A stretch of DNA of 43,603 nt from Candidatus Gastranaerophilales bacterium (GTDB lineage Bacteria; Cyanobacteriota; Vampirovibrionia; Gastranaerophilales; Gastranaerophilaceae). A model generated the notes under the pieces. It saw only the letters and a list, made by a program, of their open reading frames with translations, was not told the origin of the DNA and did not search any database. How positions within the stretch are numbered: position 1 is the stretch's first letter; every line of letters begins with the position of its first letter. The stretch covers positions 1 to 43,603 of the forward strand of contig CALUQS010000017.1 in NCBI GenBank assembly GCA_944322975.1, read 5' to 3'. Of this stretch, positions 46 through 29,579 are shown piece by piece. Both the position numbers and the translations under genes were made by a program.

Positions 46-65
46 GTTGGGCAAGTATGCCCAAC
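46..65. repeat. Hairpin with tRNA D-arm-like context
   Basis: A perfect 7-bp inverted repeat, GTTGGGC and GCCCAAC, flanks a 6-base loop. The context from 41 (gagttgttgggcaag) resembles the gagttggtagagcaag block at 396-411, which is an inverted copy of part of the tRNA-Phe D-arm. It may be a more diverged member of the same local repeat family. No T-run follows, so it is not an obvious terminator. The remaining bases of 1-108 hold nothing else that I recognise. Confidence 0.4.
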
Positions 66-108
66 CGACAATTTATTCTATAGACAACGAACTGGACATT
101 AAAATACA

Positions 109-193
109 TTTTTTGAGAGGTGAGAACCAAGGTTCGATTCCGAGAAATAAAAAAAAACACCCGAAGGTGTTTTTTAAAGTGGTGCCACGTCTC
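109..193 (-). repeat. Repeat copy 1: T-arm mirror, terminator and tRNA-Phe 3' end
   Basis: This 85-base block recurs almost unchanged at 227-310; the differences are aa/tt at 129-130, one a/c change and one A-run indel. It contains an 18-base T-arm-like sequence on the plus strand (127-144), a bidirectional hairpin terminator (152-175), and at 180-193 the last bases of tRNA-Phe including CCA on the minus strand. It therefore duplicates the 3' end of the neighbouring tRNA plus its terminator, without the tRNA body. The offset between copies is about 118 bases. Confidence 0.8.
152..175 (-). terminator. Rho-independent terminator, duplicated copy
   Basis: The stem is A-run plus CACC pairing with GGTG plus T-run, with loop CGAA. 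It has U-tracts in both directions. It is identical in core to the tRNA-Phe terminator at 267-292 and lies downstream of it on the same strand, so it looks like a duplicated second stop. Confidence 0.75.
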
Positions 194-203
194 ACTCTGC
201 CGA

Positions 204-232
204 AAAAAACAAGACTAAATGTCTTGTTTTTT
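204..232. terminator. Bidirectional hairpin terminator between the two repeat copies
   Basis: A 12-bp stem (AAAAAACAAGAC with its exact complement) encloses a 5-base loop taaat and ends in a T-run on either strand. It differs in sequence from the flanking CACC/GGTG terminators. Three terminator-type hairpins therefore lie within about 140 bases downstream of tRNA-Phe. Confidence 0.75.
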
Positions 233-310
233 GAGAGGTGAGAACCTTGGTTCGATTCCGAGCAATAAAAAAAACACCCGAAGGTGTTTTTTAAAGTGGT
301 GCCACGTCTC
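227..310 (-). repeat. Repeat copy 2, overlapping the tRNA-Phe 3' end
   Basis: This is the second copy of the 85-base block at 109-193. Here the minus-strand bases at 297-310 are the genuine 3' end of tRNA-Phe. Plus-strand bases 245-262 are an exact inverted match (18 bp) to the tRNA's T-arm at 308-325, so the trailer of the tRNA transcript is complementary to its own T-arm. Confidence 0.8.
267..292 (-). terminator. Terminator of tRNA-Phe
   Basis: The hairpin CACC-CGAA-GGTG is extended by A and T runs and starts 4 bases beyond the encoded CCA end of the tRNA on the minus strand. It is the first transcription stop for the tRNA gene. Confidence 0.85.
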
Positions 311-372
311 GGAATCGAACCAAGGACACAGGGATTTTCAGTCCCTTGCTCTACCAACTGAGCTAACGTGGC
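297..372 (-). tRNA. tRNA-Phe (anticodon GAA), CCA encoded
   Basis: Read on the minus strand this is a complete 76-base tRNA. It has acceptor GCCACGT paired with ACGTGGC, a D-arm with AGTTGGTAGAGC, anticodon stem AGGGA/TCCCT with loop CTGAAAA (anticodon GAA), a five-base variable loop, and T-arm CTTGG-TTCGATT-CCGAG. Discriminator A and a genomically encoded CCA follow. It delivers phenylalanine to UUC/UUU codons. The gene is intact, but its flanks carry partial copies in both orientations (see the repeat entries). Bases 345-359 (D-arm) and 308-325 (T-arm) each have a perfect inverted match in the upstream leader or the downstream trailer. Confidence 0.97.
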
Positions 373-453
373 ATGGTGATATTCAATTTTTTGTGGAGTT
401 GGTAGAGCAAGCTCTACTTTAATCTAAAACCGTTCCGTTGCACTCCACTGGGG
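362..453 (-). repeat. 92-base tandem unit, copy A (upstream of tRNA-Phe)
   Basis: The unit begins with the 5' acceptor region of tRNA-Phe (minus strand, 362-372) and is repeated at 454-543 with few changes. Inside it, 393-399 (GTGGAGT) pairs perfectly with 442-448 (ACTCCAC). That 7-bp stem, the length of a tRNA acceptor stem, encloses the self-complementary gtagagcaagctctac (402-417). Bases 397-411 are a perfect 15-base inverted copy of the tRNA-Phe D-arm at 345-359. Confidence 0.8.
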
Positions 454-543
454 GCTAACGTGGCATGATGATATTCAATTTTTTGTGGAGTTGGTAGAGC
501 AAGCTCTACTTTAATCTAAACCGTTCCGTTACACTCCACCGGA
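454..543 (-). repeat. 92-base tandem unit, copy B
   Basis: This is the second tandem copy of the unit at 362-453, about 90 bases long because of one lost A and small changes at its end. The 7-bp outer stem (485-491 with 533-539) and the D-arm mirror (489-503) are conserved. A third copy appears to start at 544 (gtcaacgtgg) but is lost after about ten bases. The rest, up to the trxA promoter, is AT-rich without recognisable features. Confidence 0.75.
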
Positions 544-631
544 GTCAACGTGGTTCCCGTTTCTTTATAATAGCAAAACAATATTTTGAGTCAATAATTT
601 TTTTCTTTTCATTTTTAATCTGTTATATTAA

Positions 632-1077: not shown

Positions 1078-3891
1078 TTACTTTTTAATTTCTGATTCCT
1101 TAGCTGCTTTTTGCTGTGCACGCTGTGACAACACCTTTTTACCTGTTAATCTTGACATAAACCTGAAGAAATCACCCTTAAAGCCTTTTTGTGTAACATT
1201 TTTATACTCATGCTCAAGGATTTCTTCTCTTGTTTGCGGTGTTACAGGCATGCCTATGGCTTTTCTGTTTACATATTCACCAACAAGCGTTGAAACAGTG
1301 TTAACCGTTTGTGCACCGAACAGGCTGGAGTTATAAAGATTTCTGAATGTATTATTAAACAGATTTATAAACATTACATTGTAGAATTGTCTTGAAGTTT
1401 CCTGAACAGCTCTTTCTTTAGCTTTTAGAATTGCGCCCTGTTTGTTTTCTCCGTTAGATTTTTGCATAACCATATTGTGGTTGTCTGTCATCAGGAACCA
1501 TGCTGTTGCGGCTGTTGATGTATTTTTAGCGAGAGCCGACAGGTCGGAATTCGACAGGCTGGACATTGTTGCTGTGTTAAAGCCTTTGTTGAATTGCAGG
1601 TTCATGTATTTTGCAAAATCTTCTTTGCTGTAATCAATTTTTGCAATTCCCTGATGCGGGCCAAATACCGGAGGAAGTTTAATGACAGGATCTTTGGTGA
1701 TTCTCTTTATTGCAGCAGCAACCATTTCATTTTCTTTTGTCCATTGCGGCAGCTTAACATCAGGATTAATTAATTTTGAAATAGGTTTTGCAACATGTTT
1801 ATACGGAAGCGTTATCGTTCCCCACATAAATTTAAACGGCTCTGTAATAAAGTCAGCAACCTCTTTTACAACAGGTATACCTTTTTTGCCAAGATAAAGC
1901 ATATCAGCATTAACAGATTCTTCAACAAGTCGTTTATATCTGTCTGCCGCTTGAGGATTAGCAGTTCTTAATGCTGCTATTGCCTCTTCAAACAGTTTAA
2001 GATTTTGCGCTCCGTCATCGACTTTAAATCTGTTATCAAAAGTAAAGGCATATTCTTTTGCATTTTCGTTTATGAATTTTTTTGCGATGTTATAGTTTGC
2101 ACTAATAACTTTGCCGTTTTCGTCAATTATAAGGTCTTTTAACTGTTTTGCCTGTTGAGCGTGGTTATTTGCCTCCATCGTCTGTAAAAGTTCATTTATG
2201 TTGCGTGTTATGACAACTTTGTTTCTTTCTGAAATAAAGCGTTGTGCTTCATTGTATTCAGAAATATTTTTAAAGGAGGTTTTTAGTTTTAAATTTGAAA
2301 TATGTTCAAAACCTTTTGCAAAGTTATCTAAACCTGCCTGCTTTAATACATTTGAGAATTCTTTTGATATTGATTGAACCTTGTTAGACTTTTGATAGTT
2401 TTGGATAACATTTTCAAAATATGAACCGACAACTTCATCATATTCTTTTAATTTAGTGATTATTTTGTTGTAATCATGTTGTGATATTTTATAGTCCACT
2501 CTTGTTAAAGAATTAAACCATTTATCATATTTGTTTGAAAGCACTTTAAAATAATCGTTAATTTTAACATTTTTAGCAATTTTTATATTTTTGGCATGTT
2601 TAAGCCCGAAACCGAGAATAATTACTCCGGCAAACCATTTTGCCAGTGTAGAGAAGGTGAGCAAAGGTTTTGAATCATTAACTGTTTTTATTTTTTCATT
2701 AACGGATTTTCCGGTCATATTGATATTACTCATCTGAGCAAGCGGCATATCTGCCATTTTAAAGCCATGGAACACTTTAGAGCCTTTAAATGTCGGGATA
2801 AACTCGGCTGTTTTGTCTTCTATCTGACCGTGTTTTGGAGGTTGATAATCAGCAGGAAGCAAGCCTTCTTTCTTGTTCATTTCAATGGCTTCTTCTCTGT
2901 TAATCATATGGATTTTTTTACCGTTAGACAATCTTGAGAATGCCTCGGTAATAAGTACTGTCAAGGCTGTAACCCCGACAAAAGTAGCTTTGCTCTTATT
3001 TATCCATTTAGACAGTGCGCCAAGAGTAATCAACTGCAAATAAGCGTTGGAAAGTACACGTTTTGTTTCCTGATTAAAACGCAATTTTCTTTCTTTGTCA
3101 GCCTTTTGCGGGTCATCATCGCATAATCTTGAGAGGTTATAGGCATCATTAGCAAGAAAATACGCGGGGATAAATCCTGTGACAATTCTTGTCAACGCTC
3201 TTTCATGAACTGCGTTATAATTGCCTGATTTTGCGTCAAACATCTTTAGTGCATTGGACATCAGCCCTGCGCTGCGGATTTTATCATTATCGTATTTGTA
3301 TTTTTGGGCAGACTCCATATATCCGATAAAAGAATTAACAATATCCGGATTATCAATAGAGTTCATCTTTTTTTGCAGAGCGTTTGCGGTTTGTTCTGCG
3401 GCTTGTCCGTTAACTTTAGCAGTATTGCTGCCCATAAAAGATTTTTTCAATGATTTAAGTATGCGAAAAGGCAACTCGGTAACAGGTGATGCCATTGCGT
3501 CTATAAGTTGTTTTGTCCAGTTTTTTTCTTTTATAACAACCGTAGTATCATTTTGAACTTTTATTATATGTTTGCCGATTTCCTGCCACTCGCTGGTATC
3601 AGACTCAAGCACAACAGGCGCTTTACCGATATATTTTTCCAAAAGTTTTAAACTGTCGCGAAGATTGTACCTGTGTTCATTGTACAAGCCGAAGGTCTTC
3701 TTTAGCTGTTGAGCGGAAATTCCCTTAAAAGAAACGCCTTTAAAGGAAGAATTAACTGACTCTCTCATTAAAGGCGTTTGTTTATTATAAATATCAATAT
3801 TCTCAGAAAGTTTATCTTTTGTCACAAATGACTTTTGCTTGTGACTAAGTCGATTGCTCTGAATTATGTTCGGTTTTTGATTTACTATCAT
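1078..3891 (-). CDS. Very large unknown protein with N-terminal FKG motifs and hydrophobic segments
   Basis: This protein has 937 residues from the chosen ATG. An upstream in-frame GTG at 3918 is possible, but the ATG at 3891 has AAGGGTAGGA in front of it. I recognise no catalytic family. The first ~45 residues are polar and disordered-looking, followed by SSFKGVSFKG (residues ~48-57). A helical region follows. Hydrophobic stretches lie near residues 233-251, 281-319 and 411-431 and suggest membrane association. The middle third is lysine/glutamate-rich and probably coiled. Another apolar patch near 680-710 precedes a basic C-terminus. A similar FKG motif after a disordered N-terminus occurs in the unknown protein at 28332-29579. 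The gene stands alone. A lineage-specific surface or structural protein is a guess only. Confidence 0.8.
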   Translation of the reverse strand: MIVNQKPNIIQSNRLSHKQKSFVTKDKLSENIDIYNKQTPLMRESVNSSFKGVSFKGISAQQLKKTFGLYNEHRYNLRDSLKLLEKYIGKAPVVLESDTSEWQEIGKHIIKVQNDTTVVIKEKNWTKQLIDAMASPVTELPFRILKSLKKSFMGSNTAKVNGQAAEQTANALQKKMNSIDNPDIVNSFIGYMESAQKYKYDNDKIRSAGLMSNALKMFDAKSGNYNAVHERALTRIVTGFIPAYFLANDAYNLSRLCDDDPQKADKERKLRFNQETKRVLSNAYLQLITLGALSKWINKSKATFVGVTALTVLITEAFSRLSNGKKIHMINREEAIEMNKKEGLLPADYQPPKHGQIEDKTAEFIPTFKGSKVFHGFKMADMPLAQMSNINMTGKSVNEKIKTVNDSKPLLTFSTLAKWFAGVIILGFGLKHAKNIKIAKNVKINDYFKVLSNKYDKWFNSLTRVDYKISQHDYNKIITKLKEYDEVVGSYFENVIQNYQKSNKVQSISKEFSNVLKQAGLDNFAKGFEHISNLKLKTSFKNISEYNEAQRFISERNKVVITRNINELLQTMEANNHAQQAKQLKDLIIDENGKVISANYNIAKKFINENAKEYAFTFDNRFKVDDGAQNLKLFEEAIAALRTANPQAADRYKRLVEESVNADMLYLGKKGIPVVKEVADFITEPFKFMWGTITLPYKHVAKPISKLINPDVKLPQWTKENEMVAAAIKRITKDPVIKLPPVFGPHQGIAKIDYSKEDFAKYMNLQFNKGFNTATMSSLSNSDLSALAKNTSTAATAWFLMTDNHNMVMQKSNGENKQGAILKAKERAVQETSRQFYNVMFINLFNNTFRNLYNSSLFGAQTVNTVSTLVGEYVNRKAIGMPVTPQTREEILEHEYKNVTQKGFKGDFFRFMSRLTGKKVLSQRAQQKAAKESEIKK

Positions 3892-4079
3892 ATTTCCTAC
3901 CCTTATGTACTTTCGCACAATAATAGAGGTTTTTCAATCCATTATAAAAAATTTTTAACTTAATTTAATAATGCCGCGAAAACCCGACAATAGCATAAAA
4001 TTAATACATCAAAATTTTTGCTAATGTATATTTATCAACGTAACATATTGTAACATTTATTTTAAGCACAAAAACTTAT

Positions 4080-13457: not shown

Positions 13458-14204
13458 TTAAATTTTTACTTTAGAAAAAGCATTATATCCGTTAAAAGCT
13501 TTAAAAGACAGAGGCAGCGGATTTATAGTTGTTATGTTTTCTTTTATTTGGGTTTTTCTTATTTGTACGGCTTCTTCATGAGTAACATGTTTTTGTATTT
13601 TTGAAGCAGCAATATTTCTTACATAAGGAGTAACAATATTACATGCCAGCACTGATGCTGCGATTGCAGATATAACACCGACGTTATCCTTATGGTCTTC
13701 GAGTTTTGCCAGTGCTGCTTTAGCTAAATTCTTTACTCCGGCTTGTTCATCTGTACTGAGGTTTTTAAAAGCACTAATAGAGTCAATATCTCCTAAAAGT
13801 TTTGTCAGGTTAGTTTTGAGTTCTTCTTTTGTAAAAAAATTTTGCCAGCTTTGAAAATCAAATGCTCCATGATTTTTCGGGTTTAATTTTGCAATAGCTT
13901 TTGCAACATCATCCGTAAGCAATACCCCTCTTTCAACAAGTTTATCAGCACCTCTTTTTATAAACTCACAGATAGAATAATACATACCTATATTAACAAC
14001 GGCATCAGCTGCTTCTTGCGGCAACAAAAATCTTTTTTGTTCTTTATCAATACTTTTGTCACCTAAAACCACACCTATTTGAGCAGCAGACCCGAGCACC
14101 CAGCCGAGTGCACCAAGGTGAACAAGCAGTTTTCCATTATCTTTTGAATAATGATCAAACATATATTGAGAGACTTTTTGTACAACATCAGAAGGCTTTA
14201 TCAT
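13458..14204 (-). CDS. Unknown membrane protein, partner of the gene at 14201-14743
   Basis: This 248-residue protein is not from a family I can name. Hydrophobic stretches lie near residues 28-48 (HLGALGWVLGSAAQIGVVL), 70-84 and 180-200 (VGVISAIAASVLACNIVTPYV), so it has about two to three membrane segments. A charged loop follows the first (DKSIDKEQKRFLLPQEAADAVVNIG). It ends LPLSFKAFNGYNAFSKVKI, with an FKxF that recalls the FKG motif of other unknowns here. Its ATG overlaps the stop of the preceding gene (ATGA), so the two products are likely made together and may form a complex. Confidence 0.75.
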   Translation of the reverse strand: MIKPSDVVQKVSQYMFDHYSKDNGKLLVHLGALGWVLGSAAQIGVVLGDKSIDKEQKRFLLPQEAADAVVNIGMYYSICEFIKRGADKLVERGVLLTDDVAKAIAKLNPKNHGAFDFQSWQNFFTKEELKTNLTKLLGDIDSISAFKNLSTDEQAGVKNLAKAALAKLEDHKDNVGVISAIAASVLACNIVTPYVRNIAASKIQKHVTHEEAVQIRKTQIKENITTINPLPLSFKAFNGYNAFSKVKI

Positions 14205-28331: not shown

Positions 28332-29579
28332 CTAAAAAGCTGTTTGCATTCCGTTTGGCAGAGTTGCGTTGTATTCCGGTACCATAATCATAAACGGAGA
28401 GGCGAATGTAACGTGGTCATTGTCTATACAGATTAGTTCTTTTGTCGGTTTGTCGTATCCTGATGCATTTTTACAATCAATATCAGAAAGAAAGTAATTG
28501 TCGTTACCAAGGGTGTCGATATAATACATTCCGAGTGCTTTAAAATCCGGCATGTAATTATTTACCTCCGAGGCAGAATCAAATCTGTGATTTACGCATT
28601 TATGCTCCTGATATTTGTAGATACAAACGTTTTTATCGTGGTCATAATAATATAACGGGGCGATATTACGGCATTTATTAAGAGTTAAATAACCGTCTAT
28701 TAATGCCAATGCGCCTAATGAAAACGGTTCATTAAGACTTTTTTTAGCAGGGTCTGCCATTTTAAAAACATATTTTGCGTCCGGAGTGTAAACCCCAAAA
28801 ACGTTTTTATCTGTTTTACCCTGCGTAAAATACTCAAAATTATATGTTTTCCCCTTTATAGTTAAAGGCGGAATATTTGTATTTGTTTTAAATCCCTGAT
28901 ACTGATAAAAAGATTTCAAATAATCGTATATGCGTTCAAAGGTTTCCTCATCAATATCAGATGGCAGTTTGCCTATTTTTAGCGCTCTGTTGCCGTGGAT
29001 TTTTTCATACTTATTTATAAGTGCGCTTTCTCGCCAGTCTGGGCGTAATTTTAGCAGCGGTTCAACAGAATTTTCGTTTTCATAACGCTGTCTTAAATAG
29101 TTTTCAAACGCTTCTCTGTAAGGATTGTTATATATAAAAAATCTTAAATATTCTGAATTATCACCCAGAAGAGTTCTTAAAGTTTGATAATTTTTCATAG
29201 CATCACGCGGTCTGCCGGCTATAGAATGAATCAGATCATAGCTTAAATCTTTATCGTTTAATATATCAGCGAACAACTCATTCATGGCTTTTTCATTGGT
29301 TTTTATTTTTAAAAAAGCTTCGAGCGGGTCTGTTTTATCGTGATTTACGTACCAGGTATATTCGTTTCTTAACTGTTCAAGTGTTTTTTCGTCATCTGCT
29401 GCTTTGCCTTTAAAATTAACCCCTAAAGCTGATAAGTTAGAGGCAAAAACTTTTTGCGGCTCATTTTGTTGAGAAACTTGAGTTTTTTCACCAATATTGC
29501 TAAAACTTTTTTGTGTTACATTTTTTTCTTTTGATTCGACAGCTTTATTGCCGGAAATATTGTTATAAAAAATTTGCAT
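28332..29579 (-). CDS. Unknown protein with N-terminal FKG motif and possible kinase-like C-terminal fold
   Basis: The protein has 415 residues. Residues 1-50 are polar and disordered-looking, then LGVNFKGK (FKG at 56-58). A helical region (~65-225) follows. From ~245 the order recalls small-molecule or protein kinases: a strand with an invariant-like lysine (YVFKMADP, Lys273), a long helix (EPFSLGALALIDGYLTL), a strand-hinge (NVCIYKYQEH), then YIDTLGNDNYF (Asp355, Asn359/361) and ICIDNDHVTF (Asp386, Asp388), which could be catalytic-loop and metal sites. The spacing differs from canonical kinases, so this is inference. No signal peptide is evident. Monocistronic or paired with 27935. Confidence 0.78.
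   Translation of the reverse strand: MQIFYNNISGNKAVESKEKNVTQKSFSNIGEKTQVSQQNEPQKVFASNLSALGVNFKGKAADDEKTLEQLRNEYTWYVNHDKTDPLEAFLKIKTNEKAMNELFADILNDKDLSYDLIHSIAGRPRDAMKNYQTLRTLLGDNSEYLRFFIYNNPYREAFENYLRQRYENENSVEPLLKLRPDWRESALINKYEKIHGNRALKIGKLPSDIDEETFERIYDYLKSFYQYQGFKTNTNIPPLTIKGKTYNFEYFTQGKTDKNVFGVYTPDAKYVFKMADPAKKSLNEPFSLGALALIDGYLTLNKCRNIAPLYYYDHDKNVCIYKYQEHKCVNHRFDSASEVNNYMPDFKALGMYYIDTLGNDNYFLSDIDCKNASGYDKPTKELICIDNDHVTFASPFMIMVPEYNATLPNGMQTAF

Follow-up and report, generated by a model that had tools for sequence, protein, structure and literature searches.

tRNA genes are classic landing sites for mobile DNA, but the known cases are large, integrase-borne and mostly located at the 3' end. 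tRNA- and tmRNA-targeting integrative elements (genomic islands; Islander, PMC4383910) leave a regenerated intact gene plus a displaced fragment running from a loop to the gene end, can accrete in tandem, and have been recorded with 3760 3' fragments against 159 5' fragments and with size peaks at 13.6 and 39.9 kb (PMC4383910). In Dehalococcoides, multiple copies of the 3' end of the tRNA-like ssrA gene lie downstream of it, with insertion in the T-loop, and bound large gene-bearing islands with a serine recombinase (PMC3146451), and partial tRNA genes resulting from integration are found near intact genes at kilobase-size islands (PMC9897764). REP elements, mobilised by RAYT, are short, dispersed and clustered GTAG-tagged palindromes with covarying stems (PMC3733652). 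Here, a whole family of gut bacteria (Gastranaerophilales in the named records) shows small gene-less units at both ends of many tRNA genes, and also downstream of a tmRNA gene, in which tandem copies of the nearest half of the gene have their loop replaced by a DNA hairpin and are joined to mirrored arm pieces.

The window, i.e. the whole stretch of 43,603 nucleotides that was analysed, belongs to a genome (G000; 1.78 Mb in 113 contigs) of Candidatus Gastranaerophilales bacterium. A preliminary description, made from the sequence alone, had claimed that its tRNA-Phe is flanked by inverted copies of its own arms, and this observation is correct: the block at 245-262 is an exact 18/18 inverted copy of the T-arm (308-325), and the block at 397-411 is an exact 15/15 inverted copy of the D-arm (345-359). 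The description missed, however, that both copies recur, that they sit in direct tandem units with a period of about 92 nt upstream and 118 nt downstream, and that each unit also carries a direct copy of the adjoining tRNA end (nt 1 to the D-loop upstream; T-loop to the 3' end downstream). The features of the locus are the following:

297..372 (-): intact tRNA-Phe (GAA), found by ARAGORN and by Rfam (RF00005, 69.3 bits)
567..594 (-): sigma-70-like promoter TTGACT-16-TATTAT of tRNA-Phe (10 of 12 matches, TG before the -10); the same promoter lies just upstream of the leader in genus relatives
544..554 (-): distal upstream unit, degenerate copy of the tRNA 5' end (ACCACGTTGAC)
510..543 (-): distal upstream unit, insert Y in place of the D-loop, part of a direct repeat; the same insert family occurs at Thr-CGT
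489..503 (+): distal inverted copy of the D-arm
454..464 (-): proximal upstream unit, exact copy of tRNA nt 1-11 (GCCACGTTAGC)
418..453 (-): proximal upstream unit, insert Y in place of the D-loop
411..417 (-): short direct copy of the D-stem 3' strand (GTAGAGC), next to the inverted copy
397..411 (+): proximal inverted copy of the D-arm
269..292 (-): proximal intrinsic terminator of tRNA-Phe
245..262 (+): inverted copy of the T-arm, downstream of the terminator
195..238 (+): X element (CTCTGCCGA-hairpin-GAGAGG) in place of the T-loop
180..193 (-): copy of the tRNA 3' end (GAGACGTGGCACCA)
152..175 (-): second (distal) terminator
131..145 (+): second inverted T-arm copy
109..120 (+): truncated end of a second X (TTTTTTGAGAGG); compare the distal boundary in the relative G012
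46..69 (-): REP-like hairpin (GTCGGTTGGGCATACTTGCCCAAC) at the distal edge of the array; a near-identical sequence lies beside RAYT genes in relatives (loci L397 and L403)

Read on the tRNA strand, an upstream unit consists of a copy of tRNA nt 1-11, an insert in place of the D-loop, a short direct copy of the D-stem 3' strand, an inverted copy of the D-arm and an A/T-rich linker, followed by the next unit or the real tRNA. A downstream unit consists of a terminator, an inverted T-arm, a short direct T-stem copy, the hairpin insert X in place of the T-loop and a copy of the last 14 nt of the tRNA including CCA, followed by the next terminator. As the upstream units lie between the promoter and the tRNA, they should be part of the primary transcript, whereas the inverted T-arm lies behind a terminator and should be transcribed only on read-through; both statements are inferences. 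An A/T-rich leader motif like TTGAAAATTTAATA or GACAATTGAATA stands a few bases before many tRNAs of this family (e.g. 373-396 of the window, minus strand), also where no unit is present, and is possibly a processing site. Elsewhere in the window, short SFKG/FKG-like motifs recur in otherwise unrelated predicted proteins (1078-3918, 28332-29579 and 13458-14204, and also at 1455-2297 of locus L391 of G012) and are unexplained.

A search of the other tRNA genes of this genome and of related genomes, which the preliminary description had proposed as its own check, showed that the arrangement is general. ARAGORN found 31 tRNA genes in the G000 loci examined. Of the 29 with usable upstream flank, 15 have a direct fragment of at least 11 nt of their own sequence and 7 an inverted one, while downstream these numbers are 9 and 4 of 27. 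This is not chance, as swapping flanks between tRNAs gave about 1-2% (7% for the inverted downstream class, because T-arms resemble each other). The relatives G012, G006 and G067 show the same, whereas G029 (same family) and G077 (same order), which lack X, gave one such fragment in total over all four classes (46 tRNAs). The polarity is strict: upstream direct fragments lie in the tRNA 5' half in 66 of 69 cases, 46 starting exactly at nt 1 and most ending at nt 11-20, and downstream fragments lie in the 3' half in 40 of 41 cases, 36 ending exactly at the 3' end and starting mostly 11-21 nt from it; the fragments break mostly in the D-loop or T-loop. Inverted copies are almost all from the D-arm or anticodon side upstream (26 of 27) and from the T-arm side downstream (15 of 15). 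Absence of the mirrored copies from every related strain, which had been named in advance as the sign of a one-off assembly or duplication artefact, was not observed, since the arrangement recurs across the genus and family.

The commonest insert, X, has the form (A)CTCTGCCGA-stem-loop-GAGAGG and occurs as 36 exact matches in G000, with none to the control pattern. Twenty of the 36 copies lie within 400 nt of a tRNA against 0.5 expected, and 13 of the 31 tRNA genes have one. X is found in nearly all genomes of the family: 71 of 118 relatives have it, nearly all in the same family, a few in two sister families and none elsewhere in the class, and the named records with X and with a tRNA or tmRNA beside it include 'Candidatus Gastranaerophilales' assemblies. 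Its stem covaries strongly (94.5% paired, with 85 double changes against 27 in shuffles, and slid controls at most 50% paired). X is also found outside tRNA regions, often in the loop of another hairpin as read by eye, and at locus L085 (4627-4935) three tandem X units of 122 nt with terminators were found without a recognised tRNA within the 8-kb locus, possibly reflecting a lost or undetected tRNA. Other inserts occupy the same positions: Y at Phe, Thr and Asp, Z at Pro and Thr, and W downstream in G067. Rfam covariance models detected only tRNA in the window and gave no match covering the X loci, neither to a cis-regulatory RNA (T-box etc.) nor to another known RNA family.

The arrays gain and lose whole units. 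At the syntenic tRNA-Phe-trxA locus of the genus, the number of upstream units ranges from 0 to 3 and the leader length from 19 to 282 nt, with units being 95% identical within a genome and 82% between genomes. Downstream, the fragment nearest the intact gene and the displaced one are followed by different terminators or trailers in G001, G002, G014 and G018, but by the same one in G000, G008, G015 and G020; this points to displacement in some cases and to tandem copying in others, and does not settle whether outward displacement of the native terminator or leader, as expected for a tRNA-targeting element, is a property of the arrays. Leftover inverted arms decay in G005, G009 and G021. Across the family, tRNA-Phe units occur patchily in several other genera, with different inserts, and match each genome's own tRNA-Phe variant (GCCACG, GCCGCG, GCCGCGAT). 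In one Gastranaerophilales assembly (locus L128, 2720-3110), three 126-nt units follow the tmRNA gene with the same inverted T-arm, X and 3'-end copy, so the target is the tRNA-like fold or sequence and not tRNA genes alone.

No enzyme was identified. RAYT (Y1) genes are a lead, since 13 of 41 RAYT loci in this family (L392, L396-L398, L401-L403, L407, L408, L443, L444, L448 and L454) lie within 1.3 kb of a tRNA, all 13 on its 3' side, against about 2 expected (assuming 40 tRNAs per 2 Mb and independent loci) and 1 of 20 in other families. In G002, a RAYT element sits exactly in the loop of an X hairpin in the tRNA-Phe array, the same loop-replacement pattern as that of X in tRNA loops. On the other hand, the terminal repeats of these RAYT elements are GTAG hairpins, unlike X, and a causal role inferred from copy numbers was rejected because RAYT presence does not track X number (G000 has 36 X and no RAYT hit, although this genome is incomplete), so that dependence of X on a RAYT gene is left undecided. 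A conventional element also sits at tRNA-Phe in G012, where a tyrosine integrase and an excisionase-like gene (L391 on contig C32, 3166-4182 and 4154-4345) lie directly downstream of the tRNA and the displaced fragment, of 49 nt (nt 28-76), is on another contig (L390). Ordinary islands thus coexist with the arrays and look different from them, the fragments of the units being 11-21 nt.

The effect of the units on the tRNA was examined by thermodynamic folding. Adding one upstream unit lowered the predicted probability of the native acceptor stem from 0.88 to 0.17 on average over 34 tRNAs (0.98 to 0.00 for tRNA-Phe of G000), against 0.48 for composition-matched shuffled units (Wilcoxon P about 1e-5) and 0.35 when only the 5' copy was shuffled; both the direct copy and the rest of the unit contribute. 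These values were obtained with trailers cut at the T-run, replacing a folding with a 45-nt trailer that could run past the terminator, and they are equilibrium predictions without processing, proteins or co-transcriptional order. The idea that the inverted arms neutralise the decoy in cis, so that the tRNA folds normally, was rejected because folding gave the opposite. How the cell nevertheless makes tRNA (co-transcriptional folding, leader cleavage in the A/T-rich linker) is open.

The readings offered by the preliminary description were therefore partly supported. An alternative fold of the precursor has thermodynamic support on the leader side only, the possible production of antisense fragments was not examined, and a tRNA-targeted element is the better of its suggestions. 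The explanation that fits most facts, and in which we place about even confidence, is that the arrays are built by repeated, tRNA-sparing insertion of tiny gene-less hairpin elements, followed by tandem amplification and decay. The analysis itself demonstrates the composition of the units (a copy of the nearest tRNA end with its D- or T-loop replaced by a structured X, Y, Z or W insert, next to an inverted copy of the same arm), the position of the intact tRNA next to its own leader and terminator, the gain and loss of whole units, and the spread of the phenomenon over the bacterial family. We infer from this that an insertion into a tRNA loop is resolved so that a complete tRNA is regenerated and the old end is displaced outward with the insert, as in tRNA-targeting islands but without genes, that unequal recombination between the roughly 60-nt repeats then multiplies the units, and that the elements are mainly selfish or neutral, with a Y1 (RAYT/IS200-like) hairpin transposase being the best lead for the enzyme. 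Several points weigh against this view: no enzyme is shown to act on X, no clean empty/filled strain pair shows a single insertion event (only one genome per species was available), the inverted arm copies are not explained by simple insertion and need an extra template switch, the inner and outer terminators are the same in many units, as plain tandem duplication would also give, and several different insert families sit at the same position, which one transposon would not predict.

Replication template switching is the main rival, or part of the mechanism, although as a full explanation it appears less likely. In this view, hairpins in the tRNA gene stall the fork, the nascent strand snaps back to give the inverted arm and slips back to the gene end to give the direct copy of the adjoining half, and no dedicated element moves, X hairpins being hot spots or passengers. 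It explains the direct-then-inverted D-arm with a 2-3 nt turn (GTAGAGC-TT-GCTCTAC), the mirror polarity on the two sides and the tandem duplications, but does not create the same conserved, covarying hairpin in dozens of places, nor explain why the copies are tied to genomes that have X or why inner and outer terminators differ in some genomes. Collapsed remnants of integrase-borne islands would give the same geometry (regenerated tRNA, displaced end fragment, displaced terminator), and a real integrase element sits at tRNA-Phe in G012, but this origin is unlikely, as the units contain no integrase, 5' fragments are at least as common as 3' ones, unlike in the known islands, the same X appears at many different tRNAs, and the inserts are conserved across the family.

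Similarly unlikely, though not excluded, is a regulatory strand-exchange leader, in which the decoy 5' end pairs with the tRNA 3' acceptor strand and the inverted D-arm holds the D-arm, so that units tune tRNA maturation. The folding results and the position of the units between promoter and tRNA are consistent with it, but any copy of the tRNA end would compete in this way, so the result does not show selection for a switch, orthologous tRNA-Phe genes carry 0 to 3 units without pattern, copies decay in several species, and the T-arm side lies beyond the terminator. An assembly artefact or one-off rearrangement could be suspected because the genome is fragmented and many contigs end at arrays, but it is refuted by the recurrence of the same architecture inside long contigs of many independently assembled genomes and in named MAGs. 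Many tRNA genes or X copies of G000 do lie within a few hundred bases of contig ends (contigs C1, C6, C9, C17, C58, C95, C103 and others), so the arrays probably break short-read assemblies and may make tRNA sets look incomplete. A broader reading, possible but doubtful, is that of a new class of tRNA-regenerating hairpin elements, i.e. gene-less stem-loops that insert into D-, T- and tmRNA loops, rebuild the gene end each time they land and stack outward in mirrored arrays on both sides, and whose decoy ends and inverted arms also act as strand-exchange leaders affecting maturation of the host tRNA.

The arrays are apparently compatible with essential tRNAs, offer a natural set of 0-to-n unit alleles to test how leaders with self-complementary decoys affect tRNA maturation, point to an unidentified loop-targeting insertion activity, and may help explain why assemblies of these bacteria often break at tRNA genes. 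We found no published description of this arrangement in the open-access literature on Melainabacteria/Gastranaerophilales repeats, tRNA-flanking repeats, palindromic elements in tRNA or RAYT with tRNA, subscription papers and preprints not being covered. Its parts nevertheless resemble described systems. With tRNA/tmRNA-targeting integrative elements (PMC4383910) it shares the regenerated intact gene with a displaced direct fragment running from a loop to the gene end, tandem accretion, the use of tmRNA and, in some genomes, apparently displaced terminators, but the units (about 85-160 nt, too short for a gene) neither encode nor are bounded by a site-specific integrase, occur on both the 5' (D-loop) and 3' (T-loop) sides of many tRNAs per genome, and carry inverted arm copies and a shared hairpin insert. 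The Dehalococcoides ssrA repeats (PMC3146451) are likewise multiple 3'-end copies downstream of a tRNA-like gene with insertion in the T-loop, but bound gene-bearing islands, whereas the units described here are gene-less. The partial tRNA genes resulting from integration (PMC9897764) are also tRNA fragments near intact genes, but we found no loop replacement, mirroring or 90-nt tandem units reported for them. A MITE would be expected to show a short fixed target-site duplication around a constant element, while the copies flanking the inserts are 11-30 nt of the tRNA itself and of variable length; mobilisation in trans by a cognate transposase was not assayed. As in REP elements (PMC3733652), X is a short dispersed palindrome with a covarying stem, and RAYT genes with GTAG hairpins are present next to tRNAs in these genomes, but X (ACTCTGCCGA-hairpin-GAGAGG, left base A in 145 of 153) has no GTAG-like tetranucleotide at the foot of the hairpin, and we found no copying of tRNA ends among the REP features described. 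The arrays therefore resemble tRNA-island scars and REP-like repeats in their parts, but lack a defining feature of each.
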